Assembly (NCBI RefSeq): GCF_001676785.2
Contig: NZ_CP015910.2
Location: 1,550,001-1,614,000 of the forward strand
From: Brachyspira hyodysenteriae ATCC 27164
GTDB lineage: Bacteria; Spirochaetota; Brachyspiria; Brachyspirales; Brachyspiraceae
Reading direction: 5' to 3'
DNA length: 64,000 bases
Each line of letters begins with the position of its first letter. Positions within the stretch are counted from its first letter, which is position 1. The notes under the pieces were generated by a model. That model was not told the origin of the DNA. It did not search any database and saw only the letters and a program-made list of their open reading frames with translations. A program made the translations under genes and the position numbers. This document shows positions 51,680-64,000 of the stretch, piece by piece.

Positions 51680-53938
51680 TCAGTCCTTATAATACTTGCT
51701 GTAATATTCATAGCTTTTAATAACTCTCTCTACATAATATTCAGTTTCTTCAATATCAATGAATCTTCCTGTACGATACATATTATTAGTACCATACTCT
51801 GCTTTCCATCTTCTTCCGCGTCCTGAACCTGCATTATAACTTGCTGCTACTAATATATAATTGCTAGCCTTTTGACTGCTGAATAACCAGCCTAAATGAG
51901 AAACTCCTAAATTAATATTCTGCTTAGGATCTGTTAAATCTAAAGGATTATATCTATATCTTGCCTTTTTATTTTCAGCTGCTGCTGTTGTAGGCATTAA
52001 CTGCATAAGTCCCATAGCTCCAACCCAAGATTTAGCTTTAGGATCAAATAAACTTTCTTCACGCATTATAGCATATACAAAAGCAGGCTCTATTTTATAA
52101 TATTTAGCTTCAGGTACAACATATTCATCAAAATATCTAGGATAAACTCTCTTTCTAAACTCATCAGGAAGCAAATCAACATTATCACTGTAAGGATATC
52201 CAAAATATTTTCCTATATTTGCTGATACTTGTATAAGCCTTTTTGTATTTCCTGAATCTTTAAATATTTTTTCAGCAAAATAAAATAAAGGATATGTTAC
52301 CTGTGTCTTTTTAAATATTTTATCGAATTCAGTATATGCATTATCATAATCGCCATAATAGTATAATATTATTGCTTTATTAACTTCTCTTCTAGTCTGA
52401 AGTGATAATTCATTAAATAAATCATCCTCGCTTCTATTAGCGTATAAATCTTTTACAAATCTATTATGCATAAGAATATTTTTAGCCAATGCCCTAGCCT
52501 CTCTTGTTATATTATCTTCTTTACCTGTAGCAATATAATTTAAAAATTGTATCTTATTAAGCATCTGCATAGATTTAGTAAAATTAGAATCAGCATAATA
52601 TCTTTTAGCTTCATTTAAATAATAAGTATTGCTAAGCTGAACATTAGCTATCATTTCATTATTGGCAAGACTCAAAGCACCTTTTATAAAATAATGGCTT
52701 TTACTTGTAAGAAGTGTTTTCATTAAATATTCATCTCTTTTTTCAATATCTCCAAACTCTTCAGCAGTCCACATATTCCAAGATAATGCAAAATCATGTC
52801 TGAAACTAGGATATCTTGCTTCTAAAGCCTTAGTAGCAAAATAAGTTTCTGTTTTATTATTTAATTTGAATGCCTTTCTTAAATATGATTTTAATGCAAG
52901 CTCTGTATATCTGCTTTTAGGAAATCTCTTCATTACATTAGTAAGATAAGTTTTTGCCTGAACTAAATTATTTCTATTCAAACTCAAAGTAACAAAACTA
53001 TTATATATTCTAGGAACATAATCATCTCTAGGATATTCTTTCAAAAAAGTATTATAAAGTTCTATTGATTTTTCATAATTTTTTAATCTATTATAATTAT
53101 CTGCAGAATAGTAAAGACCTAATCTTCTATGAGATTTATTGTTAAGATTTGATAAATACTCATCGAATAAAGCCGCAGCATCTCTTCTGTCTCCAGACTT
53201 CTGTTTAATTCTAGCCATATAATATGTAGAACTTGCTTTATAAGCATTATTATCATATAAATACTGAAAATGCTTTAAAGATGCTTTTCTATATCCTGCT
53301 TCATAAAGTATGGTTGCTGTTTTAAATTTTAAATTATTTGGAAAAGATGAAATATCTTCAGGGAAATTATTATTATAATATATAGCAGCTTCGCTTAATC
53401 CGAATCTGTTTAAAAGTTCATAAGCTATCATTCTAGCCTTATTGGTATCATCAGTATCTCTTAAAGCTCTTATTCCAACAAATTCTTTAATCCATTTTTG
53501 AGATTTACCATTAAAAAAATTGCTTATAGGATAATCATCTCTATAAAACTCAGTAAGAGCCTTATATTGCTCTGCATAAGGATATAATGATGAACGCGGA
53601 TATTCTTTCATTAGTAAGGCATATAAATCTATTGCTTCATTATACATATTAGTTAGCAAAGCACTTTTAGCTCCGTAATATATAGTATAATCTCTAATGA
53701 TCATATCATCTTCTGTATTCATAATATTTGTAAATTGATTGTATGCTTCTAAATATTTTCCTCTATTATGAAGTTCTAATGCCGTACCATAATTGATTTT
53801 ATTTTTTGATATAATATTCTTTTGTAATGATATATCCTGAGCACCCAACATGGATGTCATTACAATAACAATGATTTCAAAACAAAGTGTAAATATTAAA
53901 ACTCTTTTATTAAAAATTTTTAAAATAGTATTTTTCAT
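51680..53938 (-). CDS. Soluble-type lytic murein transglycosylase (Slt70-like), paralogue 1
   Basis: A 752-residue exported enzyme that cleaves peptidoglycan glycan strands to anhydro-muropeptides. A signal or membrane segment (residues 13-31) is followed by a long superhelical region of TPR/Slt-type helices (about 45-590). The C-terminal catalytic domain has the Glu in MREESLFDPKAKSWVGAMGL (near 627), LMQLMPTTAA and ASYNAGSGRGRRW. A paralogue of nearly the same length lies upstream on the same strand, with copy E between. Roles in wall turnover or making room for periplasmic flagella are possible but unproven. Confidence 0.9.
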   Translation of the reverse strand: MKNTILKIFNKRVLIFTLCFEIIVIVMTSMLGAQDISLQKNIISKNKINYGTALELHNRGKYLEAYNQFTNIMNTEDDMIIRDYTIYYGAKSALLTNMYNEAIDLYALLMKEYPRSSLYPYAEQYKALTEFYRDDYPISNFFNGKSQKWIKEFVGIRALRDTDDTNKARMIAYELLNRFGLSEAAIYYNNNFPEDISSFPNNLKFKTATILYEAGYRKASLKHFQYLYDNNAYKASSTYYMARIKQKSGDRRDAAALFDEYLSNLNNKSHRRLGLYYSADNYNRLKNYEKSIELYNTFLKEYPRDDYVPRIYNSFVTLSLNRNNLVQAKTYLTNVMKRFPKSRYTELALKSYLRKAFKLNNKTETYFATKALEARYPSFRHDFALSWNMWTAEEFGDIEKRDEYLMKTLLTSKSHYFIKGALSLANNEMIANVQLSNTYYLNEAKRYYADSNFTKSMQMLNKIQFLNYIATGKEDNITREARALAKNILMHNRFVKDLYANRSEDDLFNELSLQTRREVNKAIILYYYGDYDNAYTEFDKIFKKTQVTYPLFYFAEKIFKDSGNTKRLIQVSANIGKYFGYPYSDNVDLLPDEFRKRVYPRYFDEYVVPEAKYYKIEPAFVYAIMREESLFDPKAKSWVGAMGLMQLMPTTAAAENKKARYRYNPLDLTDPKQNINLGVSHLGWLFSSQKASNYILVAASYNAGSGRGRRWKAEYGTNNMYRTGRFIDIEETEYYVERVIKSYEYYSKYYKD

Positions 53939-54325: not shown

Positions 54326-56575
54326 TTAATCTTGATAATATTTACTGTAATGTTCATAACTATTAATAACTTTCTCTACATAATATTCAGTTTCTTCAAT
54401 ATCGATGAATCTTCCTGTACGATACATATTATTAGTACCATATTCGGACTTCCATCTTTTTCCGCGTCCTGAACCTGCATTGTAACTTGCCGCCACTATT
54501 ATATAGTTGCTTGCATTTTCATTTTTAAATAACCAGCTTAAATGTCCGATACCTATATTAATGTTTTGTTTAGGATCGGTTAAATCTAATGGATCGTATC
54601 TGTATCTAGGATTTCTATTTTGCTCTGCAGCTGTAGCAGGCATTAACTGCATAAGTCCCATAGCCCCAACCCAAGATTTAGCCTTTGGATCAAATGTACT
54701 TTCCTCACGCATTATAGCATATACAAATAATGGATCTATTTTATAATGCTTTGCCTCTGGAAGAACATACTCATCAAAATATCTAGGATAAACCATTTTT
54801 CTAAACTCATCAGGAAGCAAATCTGTATTATAAGTATAAGAATAATCAAAGTATTTTCCTATATTAACAGATATCTGCATAAGCCTTTTAGTATTTCCTG
54901 AATCTTTAAAAATCTTTTCAGCAAAATAAAATAATGGATAATTTACTTTTTCAGCTTTCTTAAATATTTTATCATATTCTGTGTATGCATTATCATAATC
55001 GCCATAACAGTATAACAATATTGATCTATCAACTTCATTAGTAGTTTGTAATGATAATTCATTAAATAAACTATAATCAGTTTTATTTGAATATAGCTCT
55101 TTTACAAAATCATTTTGCATAAGAATATTTTTAGCCATATCTCTAACTGATTTCATAAAATCATCTTCTTTTCCAGTAGCAATATAATTTAAAAATTGCA
55201 CCTTATCAAGCATTTCCATAGATTTAGTATAATTTGAATCAGTGTAATATTTTTTAGCTTCATCAAAATAATAAGTATTGCTGATTTCAACATTTTTAAT
55301 CATATCATCATTAGCTAAAGTCAAAGCACCTTTTACAAAATAATGATTTTTACTTGTAAGAAGTGTTTTCATTAAATATTCATCTCTTTTTTCAGTATCT
55401 CCAAATTCTTCTGCACTCCACATGCTCCAAGACAATGGAAAATCATGTCTGAATTTTGTATATCTTTTCTCTAATGCTGAAGTTGCAAAATAAGTTTCAG
55501 TTTTATTTTTTAATTTAAATGCTTTTCTCAAATATGATTTTAATGCCAATTCAGTCTGCCAGCTATTTGGAAATTTATTCATAACATTAGTTAAATAAAC
55601 TTTCGCCTGAACTAAATTATTTTTATTTAAACTTGTATTAACAAAATTATTATATATTCTAGGAACATAATCATCTCTTGGGTACTCTTTCAAAAATGTA
55701 TTATATAATTCCATTGATTTAGCATTATTTGTCAATTTAGCATAATTACCTGCGGAATAGTAAAGCCCCATTTTTCTATATGTTTTATTATTAGCATTAG
55801 TTAAATATTCATCATACAATTTAGCTGCTTCTTCCCTATTTCCTTCTGATTCATTTATTCTAGCCATATAATAAGTTGAATTTCCCTTATTATAATTATT
55901 AGAGTATAAATATTCAAAATGCTTTAATGCAGATTTTTTAAATCCTGACTCATAAAGTACTGAAGCAGCCTTATATTTTAAACCATTATCAAATAAAAAT
56001 ATTTCATCTTCATAATTATCATTATAATAAATAATAGCCTCAGTATTTGACAATTTAGTTATAAGTTCATAAGCTATCATCTTAGCTTTATTAGTATCAT
56101 CAGTATTTCTTAAAGCTCTAATACCTACAAATTCTTTAATCCAATTTTGTTTCCTACTATTAAAAAAGTTGCTCACAGGATAATCATCTCTATAAAACTC
56201 GGCTAATGCTTTATACTGTTCAGCATAAGCATATAGCGGCGAATTTGTATATTCTTTCATTAATAATGAATACAAATCTATAGCTTCATCATACATATTG
56301 GTACTTAAAGCACTTTTAGCTCCATAATATATAATATAATCTTTGATGATTGCATCCTCATCTCTATTCATTATATTAGTAAATTGATTATATGCTTCTA
56401 AATATTTTTCTCTATTATATAATTCTAATGCAGTGCCATAATTCATTTTATTTTTTGAAGTGATTTTATTTTTTAATGAAATATCCTGTGCGGTAAGCAT
56501 AGAGGCAATTACAGCAATAATAACAGCAAAACAAATAATAAATAATATGAATCTTTTAAAAGCTTTATTTTTCAT
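54326..56575 (-). CDS. Soluble-type lytic murein transglycosylase (Slt70-like), paralogue 2
   Basis: A 749-residue tandem paralogue of the gene at 51680-53938, aligned with it nearly end to end. It has the same membrane or signal segment (residues 11-27), the helical superstructure with matched insertions, and the catalytic region MREESTFDPKAKSWVGAMGL, LMQLMPATAA and ASYNAGSGRGKRW. Both keep the catalytic Glu, so both should be active. The gene begins at an ATG after GGG with weak ribosome binding. Confidence 0.9.
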   Translation of the reverse strand: MKNKAFKRFILFIICFAVIIAVIASMLTAQDISLKNKITSKNKMNYGTALELYNREKYLEAYNQFTNIMNRDEDAIIKDYIIYYGAKSALSTNMYDEAIDLYSLLMKEYTNSPLYAYAEQYKALAEFYRDDYPVSNFFNSRKQNWIKEFVGIRALRNTDDTNKAKMIAYELITKLSNTEAIIYYNDNYEDEIFLFDNGLKYKAASVLYESGFKKSALKHFEYLYSNNYNKGNSTYYMARINESEGNREEAAKLYDEYLTNANNKTYRKMGLYYSAGNYAKLTNNAKSMELYNTFLKEYPRDDYVPRIYNNFVNTSLNKNNLVQAKVYLTNVMNKFPNSWQTELALKSYLRKAFKLKNKTETYFATSALEKRYTKFRHDFPLSWSMWSAEEFGDTEKRDEYLMKTLLTSKNHYFVKGALTLANDDMIKNVEISNTYYFDEAKKYYTDSNYTKSMEMLDKVQFLNYIATGKEDDFMKSVRDMAKNILMQNDFVKELYSNKTDYSLFNELSLQTTNEVDRSILLYCYGDYDNAYTEYDKIFKKAEKVNYPLFYFAEKIFKDSGNTKRLMQISVNIGKYFDYSYTYNTDLLPDEFRKMVYPRYFDEYVLPEAKHYKIDPLFVYAIMREESTFDPKAKSWVGAMGLMQLMPATAAEQNRNPRYRYDPLDLTDPKQNINIGIGHLSWLFKNENASNYIIVAASYNAGSGRGKRWKSEYGTNNMYRTGRFIDIEETEYYVEKVINSYEHYSKYYQD

Positions 56576-59399: not shown

Positions 59400-62390
59400 T
59401 TATTTTAATTCTATTTCTTTTGATTCTTTAGTATTCCAGTCCATTTCAAATTTTTTCCAATTATTTGAATCAAATATATTATTCTTTACATAGTAGAAAT
59501 AATTAAAATTATATGAATACTTCAATTGAGATTTTATTTCCCAATCATTAAGCTCTATTATATACATACCATTTGTTTTATAATCATTTGTTATTAGTTT
59601 ATTGTTAAAAGTGTTTTTTACACCATCTATATGTTTTACTGCTAAATATGGAGTATCCGCTATAGTCATAAAGTTAGTATTTATTTCTATATTACCTTTA
59701 CTATTGAAATCTTTATATAAAAGTAAAGCATTATACCAAGTAGCAAATTTCATGTTTTCATTAGTAAAAAATTCTGTATTAACTTTTCTGCCATGATCTG
59801 ATACAACTATTATCTTTGTATTATCATAAACCTGATTTTCCTTTAAGAAATTTATAAAATCAATCAAAATATTTATAGCAGATACATTTACATAAAAATG
59901 TCTGGCACTATTTTCATCCTTATAAATATATAAATCCTCTTCTGGTATTGGTGTAGTAGAATAACCAGGCAAATAATCTGAATTAAAAAACTGCTGTTCA
60001 TGTGTCATCATATTATGCATTATATTATAATAATTACCATCTTCTTTTATATTAACAAAATCTTTTGTAGCAGAAAGCATTGCATAATTGTATATACTGG
60101 AATTAATAGAAAATTTAGAAATGTATGGTAAAAACCAATTTTTATCGCTATAAAAATCATATCTTAAATTAATAGGCATCATTCTAAATAAAGAGAATCT
60201 TATAAATTTGTTCTTTTTATCAAAAATAGAAAATTCAGATATATCGAAACTATCTCCTCCTAAATATTTACTTAAACTATAACTATACACAGCATTATCA
60301 TTATATGCTGAAATATTAGTATAATCCTTAAATATACTTAAATCAGGAATATCATAAAAATTTGCATAAACTGGATCAAGCAATACAGACTTATAACCAT
60401 AATTTTCTAAAGACAGCGGTATTGTTAATAAAGCCTCATTATGTTTATCAACTAAATTATTAGTACCATCAACAGATAACTCATATGGTAAATAATCATA
60501 TCCGCCATAAAGTGATGCTATAGTTGCCGTATAATCAGAAAAAGATACTGTATTTGGATAAAGAACAAAACCATCTAGTTGTTTCTTATATTCAGGAAAT
60601 CTTTCTAAAGCATCTATCCAATATGATGGTATAGCCCTATCTAATATAAATACAAAAATATTTTCTCCGTTCTTTGATAAAGTAAATAAATCATTTATAT
60701 TTTGATTATTATAAGTATCATCTGACTTTGTATGTAATTTATATATTTTAGAAGCATCATAGGCAGATATAAAAATCAAAACCAATATTAATATTAAGTA
60801 AATATTGAGAATAATATTTATTTTTTTAATTCTTAAAATAATAATAAATATGCTAACAAATATTAACATATATAAAATATTAAAAAATATATCTTTCATA
60901 GATGCTAACAAATAACTTGTATCATCAAATATAAAGTCAGCATTAATATTAACATAATTTCCTGTCATAATAAAAGTATCTATTAAAAACAAAATGGATA
61001 TAAATAAAAATATCAATGTTAAATAATTTTTTATCTTTTTAGAAAATAAAATATATAAGAACATTGGATAAAAAAAGAAAATACCAATAGAAACTACAAA
61101 ATTATTTAATATAAAATAAAAAGGTGTATTAAATTCCTGAGGAGATGCACCTATCAATGAAGATGGTATAAAAATACCGGATAATATAGTTATTAATGAA
61201 GAAGACAATAACATTAATTTATGAGTATTAGTTTCAAATATAAATTTTAAATTTTCTTTATTATAAAAAATAAAATTATAAATATTTCCAATATTGATTA
61301 TAATAGTGAATATTAATAAAAATGTATATATATTAATAGAATAATTTTTAGGAGAAAGTCTATAATATAATTCTACATTCTCATCTATATTTTCTATTTT
61401 ATCTTTTAAATCAACATTCACAAATATAGTAGAAGTTCCTCTAAAATATACACTATCTACTATATCTGGTAATTTATCTGTATTACCTTGAAATGTAAAT
61501 AAATCACTATTAATAAATATTTTGCTATAATATTTAACCTTAGCAAAATATGCATAATTATTATTTCTATTTTGTATAAAATTAAAATCTCCTAAATAAC
61601 ATTTTCTTTCAACATTAGCTAATATTAATAATAAACTAAATAAAACTGTTATAAATATAAAAAATACATTATATGCCTTTAATAATTTAAATTTATTTTT
61701 TACTAAAACTTCATACAACTTAAACTCTATTATAATATTCTTTATAAATGAGAATAAACAGTTAATAGTCCAATAAAATAAAAGTCCTGATGGAGAAGTA
61801 TATAATAATACTAAAAATATTAATGAAACTGCATATAATGGTAAGCTCTCTTTTAACTTTAATTTCCTAGCATATACGAAACCTGCAAGCAAACTAAATA
61901 AAGTCATCAAAAAAGGAAGTAAATTTATACTAATATTTCCAATCTTTATTAAAGCATCTGGTTTAGATAAATCTTTAATAAATAAAAAGCTCTGACCATT
62001 TAATCCAGTTAAACTATGCACAAAATTATATGCTGCTATAAAAAACGGTATCTGTATTAAAAGCCCTAATGTACCTCGAAAAGCATATATTGTTTTATAA
62101 CCATTTATTCTCTGACAGGTTCTTATTAATAAATATCTCTGATCTCCTTTATATACAGCCTTAATATTATCTATCATAGGCTTCATTTTATCTTGAATAG
62201 CTCTTTCTTTAGTCTGCCAAGATTCTGCTATGTTATATAAAGGCAGAGATAAAAAATTGATACATAAACTGAGTAAAAATAAACTAATACCGCTGCTTGA
62301 TCTAAATTCATTATTAAACAAGTAGTATAATATTTCTATTATGAATTCTATAGGATATATTGTAATATTATAAAGCATATCAAAAAACAT
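59400..62390 (-). CDS. YidC/Oxa1-domain protein fused to an alkaline-phosphatase-superfamily (sulfatase/LtaS-like) domain
   Basis: A 996-residue membrane protein with an unusual fusion. Residues about 20-225 match the YidC/Oxa1 insertase core: FLSLPLY, KMKPMIDNIK, IQIPFFIAAY, and SPSGLLFYWTINCLFSFIKN. Several more membrane helices follow (to about 545). The C-terminal part (about 575-930) has the alkaline-phosphatase-superfamily pattern: FVFILDR (metal Asp), a Thr-rich SFSDYTATIASLYGG loop likely to carry the nucleophile, a His region near THEQQFF, and VVSDHGR (metal Asp/His). No sulfatase CxPxR motif is present, so a phospho-transferase like LtaS or EptA is more likely than a sulfatase. The ATG has GAGAG upstream. 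Confidence 0.85.
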   Translation of the reverse strand: MFFDMLYNITIYPIEFIIEILYYLFNNEFRSSSGISLFLLSLCINFLSLPLYNIAESWQTKERAIQDKMKPMIDNIKAVYKGDQRYLLIRTCQRINGYKTIYAFRGTLGLLIQIPFFIAAYNFVHSLTGLNGQSFLFIKDLSKPDALIKIGNISINLLPFLMTLFSLLAGFVYARKLKLKESLPLYAVSLIFLVLLYTSPSGLLFYWTINCLFSFIKNIIIEFKLYEVLVKNKFKLLKAYNVFFIFITVLFSLLLILANVERKCYLGDFNFIQNRNNNYAYFAKVKYYSKIFINSDLFTFQGNTDKLPDIVDSVYFRGTSTIFVNVDLKDKIENIDENVELYYRLSPKNYSINIYTFLLIFTIIINIGNIYNFIFYNKENLKFIFETNTHKLMLLSSSLITILSGIFIPSSLIGASPQEFNTPFYFILNNFVVSIGIFFFYPMFLYILFSKKIKNYLTLIFLFISILFLIDTFIMTGNYVNINADFIFDDTSYLLASMKDIFFNILYMLIFVSIFIIILRIKKINIILNIYLILILVLIFISAYDASKIYKLHTKSDDTYNNQNINDLFTLSKNGENIFVFILDRAIPSYWIDALERFPEYKKQLDGFVLYPNTVSFSDYTATIASLYGGYDYLPYELSVDGTNNLVDKHNEALLTIPLSLENYGYKSVLLDPVYANFYDIPDLSIFKDYTNISAYNDNAVYSYSLSKYLGGDSFDISEFSIFDKKNKFIRFSLFRMMPINLRYDFYSDKNWFLPYISKFSINSSIYNYAMLSATKDFVNIKEDGNYYNIMHNMMTHEQQFFNSDYLPGYSTTPIPEEDLYIYKDENSARHFYVNVSAINILIDFINFLKENQVYDNTKIIVVSDHGRKVNTEFFTNENMKFATWYNALLLYKDFNSKGNIEINTNFMTIADTPYLAVKHIDGVKNTFNNKLITNDYKTNGMYIIELNDWEIKSQLKYSYNFNYFYYVKNNIFDSNNWKKFEMDWNTKESKEIELK

Positions 62391-62514: not shown

Positions 62515-63639
62515 TCAATTATCATTTTTTAGAACCATTTTAGATACAAAATAAGCTACAATTATAGCTGTTATACCTCCTACCAATTTTGCTACTATCA
62601 TAGGAAATATCATATTTCTATATTCTCCTCCAGCGTAACCTGCAGTAAATCCTAAATGATCTCCAAATGTAAAAGCAGCACTAACGGCAAAAGCACAATT
62701 TATAATTTTTGCCTGATTATTCATATCTTTCATTATATTAAACATAGGTATATTATTAGCAAGAGTTGCAACCAAACCAGCCGCACCTATATCATTCATA
62801 CCTAATTTTTTACCAACAGCTTCCAAAGGTTTTGATGCCACTTTAGTAAGTACAAATACAAGCGGAAAAGCACCTGCCAAAACAAAAGCTATACTTGCAA
62901 CTGTAGTTACAGCATCAGATATAGGAGACATTGTAACTGTTTTATTATCTATAGTAAATTTTATTATTTGAATTCCTGTTAATGCTTCTATCACAGCAAG
63001 AACTAAACCTATAGTAATTAATATAACTAAAAATTTAGAAAACAAATCAAATATTTTTATTAGAATATCTCTTATAAATATTAATCCTAAAGCAAGAAAT
63101 ATTGATACTATAATTATTGGTATAAGATTTTTTATTAAAAATATGATTCCATACCCTGCAGCAAGTCCGCCAACAAAAGCACCTATAGGTATAGTAATCA
63201 TACCAGAGGCTATTCCTAAAGCTAAATATTTATGATCTTCTTTATTAATAATACCAATAGCAACAGGTATACTAAAAACTATAGTAGGTCCCATCATAGC
63301 TCCAACTATAAAAGCTGAAAATTTTCCGGCATTTATATCCTGAGCAAACTCTAATGCTAAAGGAGCACCGCCCATATCATTAGCAAGTATTGTTGTTGCA
63401 AACATTGAAGGGTCTGCACCTAAAGCAGTATATATTGGAATGATAATCGGTTTTAATAATGCTGCTATTACAGGAGCAAGACATATAATACCAATCATAG
63501 ATAAAGCCAAAGCTCCCATAGCATTGAACCCAGCTTCAAACTGTTCTCCAAGGCCAAATTTATTGCCAATAATTTTATCTATAGCTCCAATGACCATAAA
63601 TATAATCATCAAATATAGTATTATTTCATTTATACTCAT
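62515..63639 (-). CDS. eutH: EutH-family ethanolamine permease
   Basis: A 374-residue integral membrane protein with about ten helices that matches EutH. Landmarks are NEIILYLMIIFMVIGAIDKI, FNAMGALALSMIGIICLAPV, ANDMGGAPLALEFAQD and FTFGDHLGFTAGY near the C-terminus. EutH carries ethanolamine across the inner membrane, mainly when the amine is scarce. No eut metabolosome genes adjoin it; instead, an amino-alcohol kinase lies 22 bp upstream and the YidC/phosphotransferase fusion 124 bp downstream, in one direction. AGGA precedes the ATG. Confidence 0.92.
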   Translation of the reverse strand: MSINEIILYLMIIFMVIGAIDKIIGNKFGLGEQFEAGFNAMGALALSMIGIICLAPVIAALLKPIIIPIYTALGADPSMFATTILANDMGGAPLALEFAQDINAGKFSAFIVGAMMGPTIVFSIPVAIGIINKEDHKYLALGIASGMITIPIGAFVGGLAAGYGIIFLIKNLIPIIIVSIFLALGLIFIRDILIKIFDLFSKFLVILITIGLVLAVIEALTGIQIIKFTIDNKTVTMSPISDAVTTVASIAFVLAGAFPLVFVLTKVASKPLEAVGKKLGMNDIGAAGLVATLANNIPMFNIMKDMNNQAKIINCAFAVSAAFTFGDHLGFTAGYAGGEYRNMIFPMIVAKLVGGITAIIVAYFVSKMVLKNDN

Positions 63640-63661: not shown

Positions 63662-64000
63662 TTAATTAAAATGAAAATAGGATAAATTTTTATGAAGTCC
63701 GGATATATGATATCTCATATACTCATAAGATTTATTCATAATTCCCCATAAAGACCATATATAATTATGTATAATTTGTGCTTTTCTCACTCTAGTATCA
63801 TCTAAACCATTATATGATTTTAATAATTTAAGACGTCTTTCATCATCAATATCAGATTCACATACAAAACTAGCTATATCTAAATAATTAGAAGTAAAAC
63901 CAGAATATTCAAAATCTATTATCTTTACATCATTTCCATTATACAATATATTGCCAAATAATAAATCTAAATGACATAATACCTTTTCATCTTTATCTAA
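63662..64000 (-). CDS. Choline/ethanolamine kinase family protein, C-terminal part (cut by window edge)
   Basis: Reading on the minus strand from the window edge, the frame runs open into CHLDLLFGNILYN and VKIIDFEYSGF. These are the Brenner-type catalytic HxDxxxxN and the metal-binding DFEYs motif of choline/ethanolamine kinases (LicA-like, APH fold). The remaining ~95 residues are the helical C-terminus. The N-terminal lobe lies outside the window. Such kinases phosphorylate choline or ethanolamine with ATP. Its neighbour EutH points to ethanolamine as the substrate, by inference. Confidence 0.85.
   Translation of the reverse strand, partial: LDKDEKVLCHLDLLFGNILYNGNDVKIIDFEYSGFTSNYLDIASFVCESDIDDERRLKLLKSYNGLDDTRVRKAQIIHNYIWSLWGIMNKSYEYMRYHISGLHKNLSYFHFN

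Follow-up and report, generated by a model that had tools for sequence, protein, structure and literature searches.

A YidC core joined to a predicted EptA/LtaS-type phosphotransferase in Spirochaetota, with a possible role in modifying surface glycolipids

The window analysed here (i.e., the whole 64,000-nucleotide stretch of Brachyspira hyodysenteriae ATCC 27164 DNA) contains a gene that joins a YidC/Oxa1 core to a domain of the alkaline phosphatase (AP) superfamily, downstream of genes for a EutH-family permease and a choline/ethanolamine kinase fusion (Table 1). In Pfam searches, 60KD_IMP matched residues 34-221 far above its cut-off (E=1.5e-20, 74.3 bits vs 35) and also matched 90/90 relatives, as expected from the original prediction that residues 1-225 resemble YidC. 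NCBIfam YidC models fell on the same N-terminal part, where the C-terminal YidC domain score was slightly below the curated cut-off. The catalytic half of the window copy matched Sulfatase and Phosphodiest (Pfam) and a generic arylsulfatase model (NCBIfam), all below cut-off, and none of the phosphoethanolamine transferase or LTA synthase family models in Pfam or NCBIfam matched this copy. The Sulfatase match that had been anticipated was thus sub-threshold in the window copy (residues 621-874, E=0.001, 18.9 bits vs 25) but reached E<=0.01 in 26/30 relatives and passed the cut-off in several sister copies. An assembly error or chimaera was rejected because dozens of genomes, each assembled separately, carry both halves in one frame, and the fusion of two domains proposed at the outset is therefore real. 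A targeted literature search, with most subscription journals outside its coverage, found no paper on a YidC-phosphotransferase fusion. The domain architecture is new, combines two known kinds and is widespread within a single phylum; in the searchable literature it is apparently undescribed.

Table 1 Features of the fusion gene, its neighbours and the normal yidC. Coordinates are window positions unless a contig (G000:C1) is given.
Feature	Coordinates	Strand	Evidence or remark
Fusion gene, 996 aa	59400..62390	(-)	Intact ORF, ATG start; AlphaFold2 pLDDT 91, pTM 0.86
YidC/Oxa1 core module, residues 1-222, five TM helices + cytoplasmic C1 hairpin	61725..62390	(-)	60KD_IMP E=1.5e-20; fold Z 17.7 to 3wo7, 17.4 to 6al2
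Codon of N45, at the groove site occupied by Lys in canonical spirochaete YidC	62256..62258	(-)	K 30/30 canonical
Linker: extra TM helix (233-258), small beta domain (262-347)	61347..61694	(-)	Model secondary structure, alignment gaps
Phosphotransferase membrane half, residues ~376-560, five TM helices	60711..61265	(-)	PbgA 6xlp alignment, hydropathy
AP-superfamily catalytic domain, residues 566-996, predicted periplasmic	59400..60695	(-)	Z 20.6 to LtaP 4uop, 19.3 to LtaS 2w5q; Sulfatase/Phosphodiest matches
D584, predicted metal ligand	60639..60641	(-)	Invariant 90/90
T621, predicted covalent nucleophile	60528..60530	(-)	Invariant 90/90; helix start in model
H797, predicted active-site His	60000..60002	(-)	Invariant 90/90
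D865-H866 (SDHG motif), predicted metal ligands	59793..59798	(-)	Invariant 90/90
EutH-family ethanolamine permease	62515..63639	(-)	Upstream of fusion, same strand; PF04346 E=3.7e-135
Nucleotidyltransferase-choline/ethanolamine kinase fusion, C-terminal end	63662..64000	(-)	Choline_kinase E=1.6e-10; gene runs on to G000:C1:1615119
Normal yidC, 626 aa	G000:C1:2753003-2753596		Same genome as fusion

We modelled the whole fusion with AlphaFold2 using 90 sequences, and also modelled the N-terminal 262 residues alone (pLDDT 88). The N-terminal module superposed on B. halodurans YidC over 207 residues (Z 17.7, rmsd 3.1) and matched E. coli YidC (Z 17.4) and chain OX of the membrane-associated human mitoribosome (9olf, Z 12.2), which upholds the predicted YidC core. 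Residues 376-996 aligned with residues 6-557 of PbgA (6xlp), nearly the full PbgA length, at Z 20.2; the rmsd of 15.3 indicates that the two domains are arranged differently in PbgA and the fusion. Residues 574-996 matched LtaP, LtaS and the EptC periplasmic domain (Z 18.6-20.6), and a whole-chain Foldseek search was led by MCR-1, PbgA and LtaP, with MCR-1 first. In the model, the YidC core is joined to the enzyme via one or two helices (plus the small beta domain in the ~1000-aa forms, which alignment gaps indicate is absent from the ~900-aa forms). As modelled, the fusion is two complete membrane modules, a diverged YidC core and an EptA/LtaS/PbgA-type enzyme (residues ~376-996), and counting helices off the YidC topology would place the catalytic domain in the periplasm. 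Because the phosphotransferase has a five-helix membrane half to itself, the YidC core is an added module and not, as had been suggested, the membrane anchor of the enzyme.

Alignment of 90 sequences, the most distant sharing 27% identity with the window copy, revealed that N577, D584, T621, R743, H797, D865, H866 and K893 are all invariant. The enzyme part thus combines an AP-superfamily fold and a five-helix N-terminal membrane half with the Thr nucleophile, acidic first ligand and D-H pair of EptA/LtaS-type enzymes, an equivalence drawn from position and spacing rather than from residue-level superposition. Sulfatases use a formylglycine nucleophile made from Cys or Ser. The type I sulfatase C/S-x-P-x-R motif was absent at the nucleophile position, which is Thr in 90/90 sequences (SFSDYTATIASLYGG in the window copy), and we therefore rejected a plain sulfatase. 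Since fold scores for sulfatases and phosphonate hydrolases equal those for LtaS and the Sulfatase profile score of the window copy is weak, the reaction class rests mainly on the conserved Thr and on context. The fusion shares its fold (Z 19-21) and, judged by pattern, its ligands with LtaS/LtaP, but differs in its YidC module, its diderm spirochaete host and its ethanolamine/aminoethylphosphonate context. With EptA/MCR-1 it shares the five-helix membrane half, the periplasmic AP-superfamily domain, the metal-ligand pattern and the Thr spacing (37 between D584 and T621, resembling E246 and the nucleophile T285 of MCR-1; PMC12658134), but it carries an N-terminal YidC module and linker, and its first ligand is Asp rather than Glu. 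These results agree with the original prediction of an LtaS-like catalytic domain, whose Thr-rich loop holds T621.

Whether the hydrophilic groove and the catalytic Thr survive was to be judged by structure prediction: the predicted Thr is kept and the groove is still polar, but the groove Lys is gone. Canonical spirochaete YidC has Lys at this groove position in 30/30 sequences, whereas the fusions have Thr (32), Ser (29), Asn (28) or Gly (1), and Lys or Arg in 0/90; their groove is polar and uncharged. A positive groove residue is reported to be strictly conserved across all YidC homologs, but insertion can tolerate loss of the groove Arg where a hydrophilic or aromatic residue occupies E. 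coli position 517 (PMC8920935). W207, which aligns with E. coli Y517, is invariant in the fusions, and residual insertase activity is possible because the groove is polar and this residue is aromatic. In all fusions the NPLGGCLP segment that precedes TM2 in canonical spirochaete YidC is replaced (residues 99-109). N210 stands where canonical YidC nearly always has Gln. Overall, the fusions share with YidC/Oxa1/Alb3 proteins (60KD_IMP, PF02096) the fold, the five-helix core, the C1 hairpin and the YW pair near the groove (Y206-W207), but they differ in the uncharged groove, the missing NPLGGCLP, three extra residues before TM2 and the attached enzyme, and they form a clade apart from canonical spirochaete YidC (100/100 support, to be read with caution given the long branches). 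The loss of the charged groove residue suggests that the YidC half was probably recruited for another job, e.g., lipid handling.

Comparison of paralogues revealed that the two halves evolve at different rates. In the closest pair of the B. hyodysenteriae genome, the YidC half is 91% identical vs 56% for the catalytic half. Divergence at four-fold degenerate sites is similar in this pair (0.50 in the YidC half and 0.56 in the catalytic half), which indicates that the slow YidC half reflects purifying selection and not recent copying, and its slower evolution argues that it does more than anchor the protein inertly. Gene conversion was likewise rejected as an explanation for the conservation of the YidC half in most paralogue pairs, in which four-fold sites are about equally diverged; one pair (G012a/b) does look recombined. 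In two copies from one genome (L051:8481-11474 and L054:7738-10743), the YidC DNA is 97% alike with four-fold differences of 0.05 and the catalytic halves are diverged, and this pair is an apparent case of recombination joining one YidC half to different catalytic halves.

The B. hyodysenteriae genome holds four intact fusions, one broken copy and one normal yidC, the last being the second yidC for which the original prediction had proposed a check. In the broken copy (L007:5013-7953; G000:C1:1619013-1621953), two ORFs (731 and 281 aa) overlap in different frames close to a seven-A run, which looks like a broken gene or a sequencing slip. Genomes of the same genus carry zero to six fusions each beside one canonical yidC. 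In a first sample, 16 spirochaetes outside Brachyspira had canonical yidC only; a wider survey placed the fusion across Spirochaetota, and we thus rejected a single-genus curiosity. Strong matches (E<=1e-60) were found in ~105/393 Spirochaetota genomes, counted by eye, and most of the best listed were full length. A scan of GTDB contigs gave, among the matches listed, 74 loci from Brachyspira, Treponema, other Spirochaetota and one unclassified bacterium (L110). The fusion reaches six copies per genome, as in Treponema ruminis (six fusions and one canonical yidC), and a normal yidC accompanied the fusions in the genomes checked. A search for plasmid spread gave no plasmid match for the fusion.

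The genes around the fusions point to headgroup and sugar-precursor chemistry. Past the window lie another nucleotidyltransferase gene, a Glyphos_transf gene whose product has a YIDPGTGS membrane segment at its N-terminus, then the broken fusion and one more that is intact. Other Brachyspira fusion loci contain genes for a PEP mutase, a class V aminotransferase and a TPP enzyme that reads as a phosphonopyruvate decarboxylase. Phosphonate tailoring (Pnt) clusters of Treponema denticola and relatives have PEP mutase, decarboxylase, transaminase and nucleotidyltransferase genes of the kinds also found beside some fusions; the paper describing them names LicD-like phosphotransferases and glycosyltransferases, and a search of its text for sulfatase and alkaline phosphatase found no mention of either (PMC6697681). 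A Glyphos_transf gene (CDP-glycerol-phosphotransferase-like) lies within three genes of 52/74 fusions outside Brachyspira, 51 of them on the same strand, vs only 8/41 Brachyspira fusions. Within Brachyspira, the Glyphos_transf gene is present in 13/15 fusion carriers and 0/11 non-carriers (p=2e-5, which overstates independence because these genomes are related), and the corresponding counts for the kinase fusion, or for its nucleotidyltransferase part, are 12/15 and 0/11. YIDPG[TS]GS occurs within the first 60 residues of 45/49 Glyphos_transf partners (e.g., L043:5939-7219, L051:519-1832 and L133:10733-11974). Treponema fusion loci (L113-L157) recurrently contain GHMP-kinase-like, GmhA-like and nucleotidyltransferase-HAD genes (e.g., L125:2536-3852, L137:11094-12128 and L139:1586-2215), a set that looks like a GDP-heptose pathway.

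We tentatively read the fusion as a phosphoethanolamine/aminoethylphosphonate-type headgroup transferase for surface glycolipids combined with a repurposed lipid-handling YidC module. It would be a two-module inner-membrane phosphotransferase with its catalytic domain in the periplasm, where T621 would attack a lipid-borne headgroup at its phosphorus. This headgroup would be phosphoethanolamine or 2-aminoethylphosphonate, or possibly glycerophosphate; it would form a covalent intermediate with the Thr before moving on to a glycan or glycolipid of the surface. Different donors or acceptors would be handled by paralogues whose catalytic halves have diverged. Less certainly, the YidC module would have no general role in protein insertion, and its polar groove might bind, thin or scramble lipid beside the enzyme. 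Donor or acceptor lipids that the Glyphos_transf partner helps to make on the cytoplasmic side could in this way reach the periplasmic active site. We favour lipid handling because the groove is polar and uncharged and because no part of the protein is conserved more strongly than the YidC half. Lipid scrambling also has precedents in the family: it has been reported in vitro for E. coli YidC, and in vitro or in simulations for other Oxa1-family insertases (PMC10491306). Lipids or glycans are favoured over proteins as substrates because the groove charge and NPLGGCLP are lost and the neighbours are CDP-ethanolamine/aminoethylphosphonate-like. Between the two ideas first put forward for the YidC part, the same evidence favours its reuse as a lipid-facing platform. 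More specifically, the locus could encode a make-flip-transfer machine, in which a cytoplasmic CDP-alcohol-type transferase builds a phosphoethanolamine or aminoethylphosphonate lipid, the YidC-derived scramblase flips it and variable surface glycolipids receive the headgroup from the periplasmic domain; we regard this fuller scheme as doubtful. If it were true, it would be, to our knowledge, the first insertase fold to act as the lipid-translocating part of an enzyme.

The other of those ideas is that a specific membrane protein or lipoprotein, inserted or held in place by the YidC module, goes on to be decorated by the periplasmic domain. The invariant YW pair and the retained C1 hairpin and YidC fold would fit this idea, and insertion can survive loss of the groove Arg next to an aromatic residue (PMC8920935). 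We nevertheless consider it improbable, as the groove Lys and NPLGGCLP are lost family-wide and the neighbours resemble headgroup and sugar-precursor genes rather than a protein substrate. Alternatively, the YidC module may be a dedicated chaperone that binds the YIDPGTGS segment of the Glyphos_transf protein, giving one complex that spans the cytoplasmic and periplasmic steps. Colocation (52/74), co-occurrence and the recurrence of the motif in 45/49 partners suit this reading; however, 33/41 Brachyspira fusions have no partner within three genes (most carrier genomes hold one elsewhere), and we rate it unlikely, if slightly less so than the decoration of an inserted protein.

The enzyme half allows for other chemistry. 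LtaP and LtaS are among its best fold matches, the partner comes from the CDP-glycerol glycerophosphotransferase family and treponemes have LTA-like glycolipids, all of which would suit an LtaS-like polymerase that supplies the spirochaete outer membrane with a polymer of glycerophosphate type resembling lipoteichoic acid. The EutH, ethanolamine-kinase-like and phosphonate genes, however, point to ethanolamine or aminoethylphosphonate and not glycerol, and no CDP-glycerol synthase was recognised among the scanned neighbours, so that we place the polymerase on a par with the chaperone. PbgA, which is regarded as a regulator, is a close fold match across both the membrane half and the catalytic domain, and the fusion could likewise sense or bind lipids with no group transfer. 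This is very unlikely: the predicted active site is still complete in the fusion, and ligands and Thr that are invariant in 90/90 diverged sequences would be needless for such a regulator.

Under the headgroup-transferase reading, the fusion is a candidate for a phosphoethanolamine or phosphonate step on the surface glycolipids of a phylum that includes human and animal pathogens. Lipid scrambling by the Oxa1 family has been reported in vitro, and a widespread protein in which a YidC fold lacking the charged groove residue is attached to a headgroup-transferase-like enzyme offers a natural test of its use in cells. The fusions are also at risk of being mislabelled as plain YidC insertases in annotation.

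Perfect tandem arrays with 5-7 bp units accompany 16/41 Brachyspira fusions vs 10/392 other genes in the same loci, and the nearest end of the fusion-linked arrays is 59-108 bp (about 90 bp) upstream of the start codon. Arrays of the same unit are found elsewhere in Brachyspira, including genomes without the fusion. No such array was found upstream of the window copy. Two other fusions near the window each have an array ~100 bp upstream, GACTGTT x12 (L007:11492-11574; G000:C1:1625492-1625574) in one case and TGTTGAT x32 (L007:8055-8278; G000:C1:1622055-1622278) in the other. GTCAACA in three or more copies occurs at one place only in the B. hyodysenteriae genome. HMW1A of Haemophilus has 7-bp promoter repeats. 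This protein is described as a phase-variable adhesin (PMC8262952). By analogy, the upstream arrays suggest that fusion expression may be phase-variable, in keeping with a surface structure. Elsewhere in the window, at 51680-53938 and 54326-56575, lie adjacent paralogues with TPR-like N-termini and, judged by eye, an apparent C-terminal lytic transglycosylase domain.
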